From assembly GCA_944324945.1 (NCBI GenBank), contig CALUYE010000001.1, positions 1-64,000 of the forward strand: DNA of 64,000 nucleotides, given 5' to 3'. Below are positions 20,661 through 24,515 of the stretch, piece after piece. Under the pieces are notes generated by a model. The model made no database searches, was not told where the DNA came from, and saw only the letters and a program-made list of their open reading frames with translations. This DNA comes from Candidatus Gastranaerophilales bacterium (GTDB taxonomy: Bacteria; Cyanobacteriota; Vampirovibrionia; Gastranaerophilales; Gastranaerophilaceae). Within the stretch, counting starts at the first letter, position 1. Every line of letters starts with the position of its first letter. A program made the translations under genes and the position numbers.

Positions 20661-23276
20661 ATGAGCAGTGAAATTGGATTAAGTCAGGCAAACTTAGAAG
20701 TATTGAAAAAAATTTATAATCAAAACAACAAACAAACGCAAGCACAAACCAAAACGCCTGCTGTGGATAAATTTGAAAAAAATACAAATTCTTCTGCTAT
20801 AGAATTAAATACTTATCAAGCCCCTGCTAAAAGCAATATAAGTTTTGGTTCAAATTCAAAATATAAAATAATAGCTGCTTTATCGACAACTCTTGCTCTT
20901 GCCTGTGCAATAGGTTTAATTGTAAACGGGAGAAGAGTAAAAGATTTTGATGCGCTGCAAAAAACAATGCAGAATACAACAAACCAATTGATGGATACAA
21001 CTCAAAGACTTCAAGATACGCAGGCTAAAATCATTGAAGATCAAAAAGCCATACAAGAACTGGAAGAAGGAATTGAAAAACTAAAAACCAGAATAAGCGA
21101 TTTTGCATACGACGGTAAAAGTTTTGAAGCATTAAAAAGTGAAAGAATAGCACATTATGAGGAATTAATAAAAAATCCTAAATTGGACTATGATCCTTTG
21201 GATCCTCCTGCTGATATAGAATTGTATCAAAAATATTTTGTAAAAAAATTGCCTTTTGTTGGCTTTGAAGAGTCCCAAGGTGATATGCAAGCAAGCAATT
21301 ATGCGCAAAGCTTGCTTGAAAAATTCAGAAAAACTTTTAATTTAGAATTACCTCTTAACTCAAATGCAAATACGCAAGAAGAAATTCAAAAAGCATGTAT
21401 TAAAAATGAGGACTTGCAAATATTTAAAATAGGTGAGATGCAGCCTGCAGGCATGAAGCTTGAATATGGTACAAGAACAATGTGGTCCGATGAAAAAATT
21501 TCAAGAGATATATTGCAGAATTTCTTTGATGCTAACGGACACAACCTGGATGGCGTCGGGATTTCAATTAAAAAAACGGGACAAAATTATAAAGTAAAAG
21601 TTTCCGGAAACGGACTGTACGGGCTTGATTCATTGCTTGAATTGGGTTCTGGAAGCAAGATAAAAGAAAGTCCTTATAACGCAGGAGGTTTTGGTGAAGG
21701 CTCAAGAATTTTTGTGGCAAATTTGCTTGGCAGACAAAAAACTTCAAATGTTAAATTTTCATGTGCGGATTGGCAAATAGATTTTATGCCGCAAAAGGAA
21801 TCTATTGTAAGAAAATTGGAAAGATTAAAAAAACCTATCAATGGTAATTATATTGAATTTGAAACATCAGATAAAGGACTTGTAGAATCTTTAATTAAAT
21901 CTATTGATTATTTTAAACATTCAAAAAATACGGATTTTCAAAATTTATCTTTTGATAACAAGGATTTTGGTTTTAAAATTTTAAATCCGGGTCAAAAAGG
22001 TAATTTATATTTAACCCAAAGATTTGAATACAATAAAGAAGGACAATGGGAAGGCGGGGTTGAAGGTTTAAATTTAATCTTCAAGAGAAAGCCTGACTTG
22101 GAAAAATATAGAGAAATCACGGGAAACAATTTTTCAACAGGCAGAGACAGAAATTTTATATCAAACAGCGATGTTTATAATTTGGTTAAATATTTTGCTT
22201 CGGATTTATCGAATGAAGATTTAATCAAGGCAATTTCAAGCACAAAAGCGCACTGGGAGAAAATTCAGTATGATGATAATACGGCTATTAAAGAATTTAT
22301 AAACGCTTTATGTGATGTAGCGGAAAAAAGGCATATAGGAATAGATTTTAAAGATATAAAACTATGTAAAATAGATGAATACGGATGCGATGAAACGATT
22401 TGTCAGTTTGTAAAGAGTATGGGCTATAAACTTATAACTTCAAAATTAAAACTGGATGAAGTCGGTATGGATACTGCAAAAGATGTAATGAAAAAATCAT
22501 CCGTTCATAAAGCACTTAATCCCGATGAATACGAAATTAAAAAATTAAAACTATTGGAAGAAGCAACTGATGTTATACAAAAATCAATAGAAGCTACACT
22601 GCCAAATAAATTAAAAGACCTTTTCAGGGACTGTAAAGATGCACTTCGCGCAGATATGCCGGCCGATGTTTTTTCTTTTGTCAGGGCATTAGATAAAGAA
22701 TATAAAGACAGTGATTTTGTCAAAAAGTATATAAACTTTCAAGAAGTAGCACTTGACGAATTTAACAGGGACTTAAAATTATTCCTCGAAGATGAAGTTT
22801 TAAAACTAACAAACAAAGATATTGCAAAAGGCAGATGTCTTGCAAAGGCAATATTACATGTATTGAAATATGGCAATAATGACGAACTTTTGAAAAAATA
22901 TGCAACTCAAATTCAAAATCTTGACATAATTGCACCCAAGGATGTGCGCAAGCCAAGATATATATTTGACAGATTTAATGAAATTGCAAATAATACCTTA
23001 GGCGAAGCAATAACGGATATAAGTAATGAAAATTTCAGACTCCAATACATGGGACACTGGGTTGATAAAACATATTTTGATGAAGCTTCATTTTTTAATT
23101 TGTTAGCAACCTGGCTCCATGAGATTTCTCATAAAAGCGGAGGAGACGGAAGTGCTGAATTTACATATAAATTAACCGATTTAATCGAAGCGCTCACAGA
23201 ATCCTCCACTAATTCTTATCAAACAAGAATCGAGCTTGCTGCGATTCAGGAAGTATTTGATAATTTAAAACGTTAA
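20661..23276 (+). CDS. Membrane-anchored protein combining a GHKL ATPase fold with an HEXXH zincin motif
   Basis: 871 residues. Residues 1-68 form a polar Q/K/N-rich leader ending NISFGSNSK; 69-89 one membrane helix; then NGRRVK and a coiled coil to about 147. Residues about 260-420 carry GHKL (HSP90/histidine-kinase/MutL) boxes: N-box SRDILQNFFDAN (281-292), G1-like GNGLYGLDSLLELGSGSKI (316-334) and G2-like GGFGEGSRI (342-350). A long helical region follows. Near the C-terminus is a zinc-protease motif, WLHEISHKSGGDGSAEF (H820, E821, H824, possible third ligand E833). Positive charge after the helix suggests the large domain is cytosolic. An ATP-gated protease or chaperone-protease is inference. 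Confidence 0.8.
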   Translation: MSSEIGLSQANLEVLKKIYNQNNKQTQAQTKTPAVDKFEKNTNSSAIELNTYQAPAKSNISFGSNSKYKIIAALSTTLALACAIGLIVNGRRVKDFDALQKTMQNTTNQLMDTTQRLQDTQAKIIEDQKAIQELEEGIEKLKTRISDFAYDGKSFEALKSERIAHYEELIKNPKLDYDPLDPPADIELYQKYFVKKLPFVGFEESQGDMQASNYAQSLLEKFRKTFNLELPLNSNANTQEEIQKACIKNEDLQIFKIGEMQPAGMKLEYGTRTMWSDEKISRDILQNFFDANGHNLDGVGISIKKTGQNYKVKVSGNGLYGLDSLLELGSGSKIKESPYNAGGFGEGSRIFVANLLGRQKTSNVKFSCADWQIDFMPQKESIVRKLERLKKPINGNYIEFETSDKGLVESLIKSIDYFKHSKNTDFQNLSFDNKDFGFKILNPGQKGNLYLTQRFEYNKEGQWEGGVEGLNLIFKRKPDLEKYREITGNNFSTGRDRNFISNSDVYNLVKYFASDLSNEDLIKAISSTKAHWEKIQYDDNTAIKEFINALCDVAEKRHIGIDFKDIKLCKIDEYGCDETICQFVKSMGYKLITSKLKLDEVGMDTAKDVMKKSSVHKALNPDEYEIKKLKLLEEATDVIQKSIEATLPNKLKDLFRDCKDALRADMPADVFSFVRALDKEYKDSDFVKKYINFQEVALDEFNRDLKLFLEDEVLKLTNKDIAKGRCLAKAILHVLKYGNNDELLKKYATQIQNLDIIAPKDVRKPRYIFDRFNEIANNTLGEAITDISNENFRLQYMGHWVDKTYFDEASFFNLLATWLHEISHKSGGDGSAEFTYKLTDLIEALTESSTNSYQTRIELAAIQEVFDNLKR

Positions 23277-24515
23277 TTAATCAACAATAGCGCCTTTGGG
23301 TACTACTGTGATGCCGCCTTGTGAAACGAAAAATCCTCTTTTTAAATCTTCTTCTTTGTTGAAACCGATTTCCGTATATGGCGGGATTTCGACATTTTTA
23401 TCGATGATTGCACGGTTAATCTGGCTGTGGCGTCCTATTGTAACATTTTCCATCAAAATCGAATCGCAAACGCTTGAATAGCTGTTGATTCTTACTTTTG
23501 GAGATAAAACACATCCTGAAATAACGCCGCCTGAGATTATGCAGCCTTCAGATACCAAAGAATTTTTAGCAACCCCGACGCGTTCTTCTTCATCCCAGAT
23601 AAATTTAGCCGGAGGCATGTTGTAATTATATGTCCTTAAGGGCCATTGAGCGGAATATAAATTAAGCTCGGGGGAATATGCAAGCAGATCCATATTAGCC
23701 TGCCAATAACTGTCAACATTACCTACATCTTTCCAATACCCGCGCTCAGCATCGGTAATACCCGGGAATTCGTTGTCGCAAAAATTGTAAATATAAACCT
23801 TTGAGCCGTTATTTAGCATATTAGGGATTATATTTTTGCCAAAATCGTGCGAGGAATTTATATCAAGAGCATCTTTTTTTAATTCTTCAACGAGTTTATT
23901 GGAATTAAAAATATAATTACCCATTGAAGCAAGACATTTAGTGGGGTCGTTTGGTATATGGCGCGGAGTTGTGCGCGGTTTTTCGATAAAACCCGTTAAT
24001 CTCCAGTCATCATCAACCTCAATAATCCCGTATTCTCCCGCTAATTCGATAGGTATTGCAATGGCGGAAATTGTTAAATCCGCCTGTTTTTTGATATGAT
24101 AATCAAGCATCTGGCGCACATCCATTTTATAAATATGATCACCGCCAAAAACGCAAACATAAGAATAATCTTCATCCGTTATTTGATTAATGTTTTGATA
24201 GATGGCATCAGCTGTTCCTCTATACCAGCTTCCATCCGTTCTCATTTGTGCAGGAACCAAATCAACGTATTGATCAATTGAAGACGATAAATCCCAGCCT
24301 CTTGAGATATGTTTATTTAATGAGTCTGATTTATACTGGGTTAATACTTTTATTTTGTAAAAACCCGAGTTTACAAAATTATTCAAAACAAAATCAATGA
24401 TTCTATATCTTCCTCCGAAAGGAACCGCAGGTTTTGCTCTGTCTTTTGTTAAGGGAAGAAGTCTTTTTCCCTGGCCGCCTGCTAAAATCATTGTTAAAAC
24501 TTTGTTGTGAAACAT
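23277..24515 (-). CDS. glgC: Glucose-1-phosphate adenylyltransferase
   Basis: 412 residues. Makes ADP-glucose from glucose-1-phosphate and ATP (EC 2.7.7.27) for glycogen. The nucleotidyl site is ILAGGQGKRLLPLTKDRAKP near the N-terminus; other motifs are FGGDHIYKMD, GIIEVD and FIEKP. A left-handed beta-helix C-terminus (repeats around VTIGRHSQINRAII) follows. Monocistronic, convergent with the GHKL-zincin gene. Confidence 0.97.
   Translation of the reverse strand: MFHNKVLTMILAGGQGKRLLPLTKDRAKPAVPFGGRYRIIDFVLNNFVNSGFYKIKVLTQYKSDSLNKHISRGWDLSSSIDQYVDLVPAQMRTDGSWYRGTADAIYQNINQITDEDYSYVCVFGGDHIYKMDVRQMLDYHIKKQADLTISAIAIPIELAGEYGIIEVDDDWRLTGFIEKPRTTPRHIPNDPTKCLASMGNYIFNSNKLVEELKKDALDINSSHDFGKNIIPNMLNNGSKVYIYNFCDNEFPGITDAERGYWKDVGNVDSYWQANMDLLAYSPELNLYSAQWPLRTYNYNMPPAKFIWDEEERVGVAKNSLVSEGCIISGGVISGCVLSPKVRINSYSSVCDSILMENVTIGRHSQINRAIIDKNVEIPPYTEIGFNKEEDLKRGFFVSQGGITVVPKGAIVD

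Follow-up and report, generated by a model that had tools for sequence, protein, structure and literature searches.

A GHKL-transducer module joined to a predicted zincin domain in a membrane-anchored protein of Candidatus Gastranaerophilales

We describe a protein of Candidatus Gastranaerophilales in which a GHKL-transducer module is followed, in the same chain, by a C-terminal domain that models as a WLM/SprT-like zincin, behind a single predicted N-terminal membrane helix. Its gene is an intact ORF of 871 aa with an ATG start (20661..23276, + strand) in the window, by which we mean the whole stretch of 64,000 nucleotides analyzed (contig CALUYE010000001.1, positions 1 to 64,000). We predict a zinc peptidase that is tethered to the membrane and controlled by the GHKL clamp, a reading that in our judgment could equally well prove right or wrong.

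Well-known energy-dependent bacterial proteases run on AAA+ rings. Coupling a zinc protease to a GHKL clamp within the same chain would regulate proteolysis by different means. The GHKL-zincin architecture is common to phages, plasmids, and gut bacteria, yet it has no name in the libraries searched. Moreover, the family includes second tandem units in which the ATPase residues persist but the peptidase is gone, and which provide natural controls, and its swapped adenine-reading residues raise the question of which nucleotide is used.

The Gene and Its Surroundings

A genome search found the gene as a single copy in its own genome. Its stop codon abuts the stop of the convergent glgC, with a spacer of 0 (window 23274-23277). 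In Vampirovibrionia the gene is surrounded by unrelated housekeeping genes, and most of the loci read are without defence neighbours. A conserved operon was ruled out, given that the neighbours vary between the genomes read; in two sister genomes, der is followed by neither this gene nor glgC.

Scans of the 871-aa protein against Pfam, NCBIfam, PADLOC, and PHROG gave no significant and relevant match, and library scans of the protein returned only coiled-coil or weak chance matches. Among the latter was Csx28/HEPN (~1e-3 to 6e-3, residues 482-574, in the transducer/helical region), which we dismissed. PDB sequence searches, whether run with the protein alone or with the full alignment, yielded nothing meaningful; designed TIM barrels appeared at E 0.002 and were rejected, as they stem from a repeated 20-residue match. 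According to the original prediction, no described family is known to have this architecture. That is correct for named families, judging by the library scans, but unnamed homologues with GHKL plus HExxH occur in phages and plasmids.

The GHKL-Transducer Module

The full-length model has a pLDDT of 84.5. In this model, residues 262-603 (21444..22469, +) form a GHKL plus transducer (S5-like) module, identified from structural matches obtained with VIA. TRAP1 was matched at Z 11.3 (7kcl_B, 245 residues, 4.4 A) and so was GyrB (3zkb, 236 residues, 4.0 A). Hsp90, GyrB, ParE, TopoII, and TopoVI-B all lie at Z 10-11, with TRAP1, GyrB, ParE, and TopoII at about 11 over 217-251 residues. Models without a GHKL fold had been named as an outcome that would speak against the prediction; the fold is present. 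By fold and homology, the protein belongs to the GHKL superfamily.

Alignment of 84 homologous units, with a mean column identity of 24%, revealed a set of invariant residues that includes, among others, W275, R282, D283, Q286, N287, G342, G345, E346, G347, G395, Q453, and R497. The N box, R282-D290 (R-D-I-L-Q-N-F-F-D; 21504..21530, +), thus has four residues conserved in 84/84 units (R282, D283, Q286, and N287) and a fifth, D290, in 80/84. D283 stands in the place of the catalytic acid, an Asp here versus Glu in other GHKL proteins, and N287 in that of the Mg2+ Asn. The G2 box, G342-G347 (GGFGEG; 21684..21701, +), is equally constant (G342, G345, E346, and G347 in 84/84). In the transducer, Q453-R454 (22017..22022, +; Q in 84/84, R or K in 77/84) is a candidate gamma-phosphate contact by analogy with the QTK loop of GyrB.

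The G1 box is different. At its position, V314-G318 (VSGNG; 21600..21614, +), Gly316 replaces the canonical Asp and lines up with the leading D of a phage protein's DDGPG; Gly occupies this column in 83/84 units. Similarly, G395-N396 (21843..21848, +) aligns with the GT of the phage protein and replaces the GT of other GHKL ATPases, the second column being N in 77/84 units and T in 6. In GHKL ATPases, the G1 Asp and the later Thr usually contact adenine. The expectation of clear N, G1, and G2 boxes therefore survives for N and G2; G1 is recognizable by position only, and "clear" was too strong a word for it because the adenine-contacting Asp is missing. For the same reason, the protein cannot be counted among the canonical ATP-binding GHKL enzymes. 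Since the residues for phosphate, Mg2+, and hydrolysis have been kept, a changed base preference seems more likely than a dead nucleotide site. Binding of the nucleotide may be unusual, or the nucleotide may be one other than ATP.

The Zincin Domain and Its Metal Site

The C-terminal domain begins with a helix in residues 619-645 (22515..22595, +), seen as helix 623-645 in the full-length model and as helix 5-19 in the model of a homologous domain. It is followed by a helical insertion, residues 650-755 (22608..22925, +), that is present in the close relatives of the window protein and not in compact members, and then by the main part, residues 758-871 (22932..23273, +), which was delimited from models and structural matches. 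Because the window's copy carries the insertion, the domain of L084, a compact homologue that in alignment A3 shares 35% identity with the domain of the window protein, was modelled alone. The resulting model (pLDDT 95) has strands at 39-42, 58-64, and 70-78 ahead of the HExxH helix at 87-102, so that a three-stranded sheet comes first. The best 12 Foldseek matches to this domain are all zincins, namely selecase/jannalysin and Wss1. VIA placed Wss1 first (Z 9.0, 107 residues, 2.8 A), followed by 1oz9 (Z 6.7) and SprTN (Z 6.1), with unrelated rows near 4.5.

In a PDB profile search with the zincin domain, two Wss1 proteins came out on top, but at E 0.11 and 0.28. Among distant members of the class, L130 matches WLM above the cut-off and L129 matches YgjP at 8.6e-5, and SprT matches occur too. 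The WLM profile found no match in the window protein itself, and for this reason we do not file the protein under WLM/Wss1. Sequence and model together support a C-terminal domain that is a WLM/SprT-like zincin by fold, with HExxH plus Asp.

The motif expected at residues 820-824, HEISH, is present exactly there (23118..23132, +) and is the predicted zinc-binding and catalytic motif. Asp829 (23145..23147, +), which extends it to HExxHx4D, is invariant together with H, E, and H in alignment A3. The extended motif HExxHx4Dx4F was found in 52/52 standalone proteins and 17/17 first tandem units, and in 0/15 second tandem units. HExxH itself is conserved in position in 69 of the 84 units, and all 15 exceptions are second tandem units, every one of which has kept the N box, G2, K333, and Q453. 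This pattern of retention in standalone and first units and loss in second units indicates that the peptidase site is real and selected. A chance HExxH can be ruled out, as only 0.8% of shuffles of this protein contain one and the motif is conserved in position. Moreover, the second units have lost both His, the Glu, and the Asp together, as would be expected if all four form one metal site; Asp829 is the probable third zinc ligand. Burial of HEISH in a non-zincin, unconserved helix had been proposed as grounds for abandoning the idea. Instead, the motif is conserved and, in the homologue model, belongs to a zincin fold.

The peptidase is not universal among distant relatives, since L127 is without HExxH. 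A further distant relative in the class, L131 3755-6934, carries a pair of GHKL units and, instead of HExxH, a degenerate EEKAH.

The Membrane Helix and the N-Terminal Region

Residues 68-88 (20862..20924, +; core IIAALSTTLALACAIGLIV) are predicted to form an N-terminal membrane helix. The segment reaches a KD value of 2.44 across the 19 residues starting at 70 and is a helix, of low confidence, in the model. Across residues 201-871, KD never exceeds 0.46 in any window of the scan. The reading frame is uninterrupted and has this single membrane-like segment, in agreement with the original prediction of an 871-residue chain with one membrane helix. The flanking charges (+3 on the N side, +2 on the C side) do not settle the topology. 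A comparable segment (KD >1.5) occurs in 49/52 standalone members and is missing in L057 and L066, which belong to another family, and in L123, from a Caenarcanales member; membrane anchoring is therefore not universal. Beyond the helix lies a membrane-proximal long helix, residues 96-148 (20946..21104, +), that is helical in the model, has weak coiled-coil library matches, and is probably a coiled coil.

Just upstream of the membrane helix, several members carry an NISF[GS]/ISFSG stretch (window 20835-20852; L125 5986-8628; L089 1437-3683). A few unrelated neighbours have similar stretches close to their own N-termini, and enrichment of an N-terminal [IVLN][NSTA]F[KGSTRA]G motif is weak.

Relatives in Vampirovibrionia, Phages, and Plasmids

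A single-sequence search found relatives in 21/146 near genomes, and a profile search extended this to 59/289 genomes of the class, a patchy distribution. GTDB contigs held 112 relatives, mostly from Candidatus Gastranaerophilales, and a set of viral contigs held one homologous locus. Standalone proteins are ~700-880 aa long and usually have an N-terminal membrane segment. Many genomes also have giant ORFs (1400-4355 aa) whose C-termini carry two units in tandem; examples are L037 73-13137 (4355 aa), L033 7686-13466, and L038 369-10277. One giant protein contains a LysM-like segment, below the cut-off. In the middle of L037 73-13137 there is a separate second HExxH stretch, SIRHELTHINDKK, possibly another zincin. 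A tree of the units (FastTree, midpoint root) did not recover monophyly of the first or of the second tandem units. The second units are spread over three or more positions in the tree; HExxH may therefore have been lost more than once, or long branches may be misleading. Broken copies were also observed: L034 9403-11190 has in-gene stops (genome G101) and L048 6682-9086 consists of two overlapping frames with an apparent frameshift (G116), which could reflect decay or assembly error.

Direct tblastn of the window protein against phages and plasmids found nothing. With the distant class member L131 as the query, tblastn led to phage and plasmid proteins annotated as "ATP-binding protein" (WP_212382915.1, WP_272443548.1, WP_231847039.1, and WP_331762439.1) or, in phages, as "hypothetical" (WPA89660.1 and AYP68649.1); PHROG 6077 is annotated as "unknown function." Five of these proteins end in HExxH...D-x-T-x-x-F: those of a Moorella phage (HETLHKYSGARDCTREF), an Exiguobacterium phage (HETIHRVTGANDNTEAF), and Alkaliphilus (HEEVHHMSGAADRTREF), Aneurinibacillus (HEQVHRQSGAYDRTREF), and Salinibacter (HELAHPKSRAKDQTREF) plasmids. 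In a sixth, that of a Streptomyces plasmid, HEHGH precedes ADRTRDF. The protein of Xanthomonas phage phiXF1 has GHKL only, and at least one PHROG 6077 member is without the zincin. An hhalign comparison with the phage/plasmid profile gave a probability of 98.5% (E 1.6e-15) over 407 columns, from GHKL through HExxH and the Asp. Because the proteins align end to end, the architecture extends beyond the window. In the reverse direction, the phage/plasmid profile finds the window's family as one match per genome in 16/194 genomes; in the window's own genome the match was not above threshold. A PHROG 6077 search was silent in the own genome and in controls alike, and hence carries no weight.

The phage and plasmid proteins share with the window protein the order of domains, GHKL-transducer and then HExxH...D-x-T-x-x-F. 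They differ in having a shorter middle and no membrane helix that was noted. Furthermore, most of their units that were read have the canonical G1 Asp and GT, whereas the Gastranaerophilales branch has Gly and GN. Two of the plasmid proteins, L132 2869-6180 (Alkaliphilus) and L181 1411-4284 (Aneurinibacillus), contain ~3 GHKL-type units followed by a single HExxH domain. The Salinibacter ruber plasmid homologue (L137 2797-4236) sits inside a type I restriction-modification locus, between the genes for its S and R subunits.

Possible Roles

In the clamp-controlled peptidase that we predict, the N-terminal helix would anchor the chain with its catalytic part facing the cytoplasm, where nucleotide is present. 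Two chains would pair via the coiled coil and, upon nucleotide binding, via their GHKL domains. Closure of the clamp would trap or position a protein substrate and bring up or free the zincin site, and hydrolysis would reset the clamp. In the giant proteins, the tandem GHKL units would form a ready-made pair that has two nucleotide sites but only one live peptidase. This is close to the original prediction that the protein could be an "ATP-controlled membrane protease," a reading that stays tentative, as the residues that usually read adenine are replaced. A wider claim, that there is a class of regulated proteases driven by a GHKL clamp and not an AAA+ ring, spanning phages, plasmids, and one bacterial class and with a membrane branch whose base recognition has changed and which relies on a nucleotide other than ATP or on a new mode of ATP binding, is tentative, and we regard it as rather unlikely.

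Wss1 and SprTN act on DNA-protein crosslinks. The resemblance of the zincin to these two proteins suggests a different role, in which a GHKL-S5 module akin to those of MORC, MutL, or RIIA would work with a Wss1/SprT-like protease to cut DNA-bound or defence proteins. On this view, the phage and plasmid relatives would serve in defence or counter-defence, with the gut family as a domesticated, membrane-bound branch. The patchy presence in 59/289 genomes, the very occurrence of homologues in phages and plasmids, and the position of the Salinibacter homologue inside a restriction locus all fit such a role, as does the presence among the structural matches of RIIA, a counter-defence GHKL protein (PMC7824862). 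Nevertheless, the Vampirovibrionia copies lie amid housekeeping genes, mostly away from defence neighbours, most members have a membrane anchor, PADLOC gave no relevant match, and a DNA-binding domain was not found. We give this role perhaps one chance in four.

The giant proteins suggest another possibility, namely a module through which large surface or effector proteins process themselves: the zincin would cleave the chain it belongs to, or giant partner proteins, with the GHKL units as the switch. The tandem units do sit at the C-termini of the giants, one of which has the LysM-like segment, and zincin domains of polyvalent proteins have been proposed to process their chains (PMC5512222). 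Standalone members are common, however, with no giant partner adjoining them in the loci read, an export signal was not identified, and GHKL domains normally need cytoplasmic nucleotide; we therefore consider this function improbable. Least probable of all is a GHKL domain that has lost nucleotide binding and merely dimerizes the peptidase, for although the adenine Asp is lost in 83/84 units and the Thr in 77/84, D283, N287, the G2 box, K333, and Q453 are invariant or nearly so despite a mean column identity of ~24%, and Mg2+, phosphate, and hydrolysis residues persist even in the peptidase-less second units, which is unexpected of a dead site.

Comparison With Known Systems

GyrB/ParE, topoisomerase II, Hsp90/TRAP1, MutL, and MORC share with the window protein GHKL plus transducer, the N and G2 boxes, and the transducer Q-R/K. 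Compared with these proteins, the window protein has the G1 Asp and the later Thr replaced, and has a zincin in the place of their own C-terminal domains, as well as a membrane helix. RIIA consists of GHKL plus a variable C-terminus and functions in counter-defence, and phage SprT-like peptidases have also been described (PMC7824862). Proteins of the phage T4 RIIA type resemble the window protein in having an N-terminal GHKL module and a variable C-terminal part, and several RIIA models are among the structural matches, with low TM-scores; the PHROG RIIA family has no sequence match to the window protein, and no HExxH zincin was seen in the RIIA-type proteins here.

In structure, the C-terminal domain comes closest to Wss1/WLM and SprT/SPRTN (Z 9.0 for Wss1, 6.1 for SprTN). 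Their third ligand is His, whereas in the window protein it is apparently Asp (HExxHx4D), and the window protein, unlike them, is fused to GHKL. Minimal Asp-zincins of the Acel_2062 type are stand-alone domains with HEXXHXXGXXD (PMC3890501). They have in common with the window protein HExxH, an Asp third ligand (predicted in the window protein), and a minimal zincin fold, with the Asp one residue earlier in the window protein. In the open-access literature searched we found no description of GHKL-zincin fusions, an absence that is no proof of novelty. Both kinds of component are thus already known; what seems to be new is their fusion, the altered G1 box, and what appears to be an Asp-type metal site.
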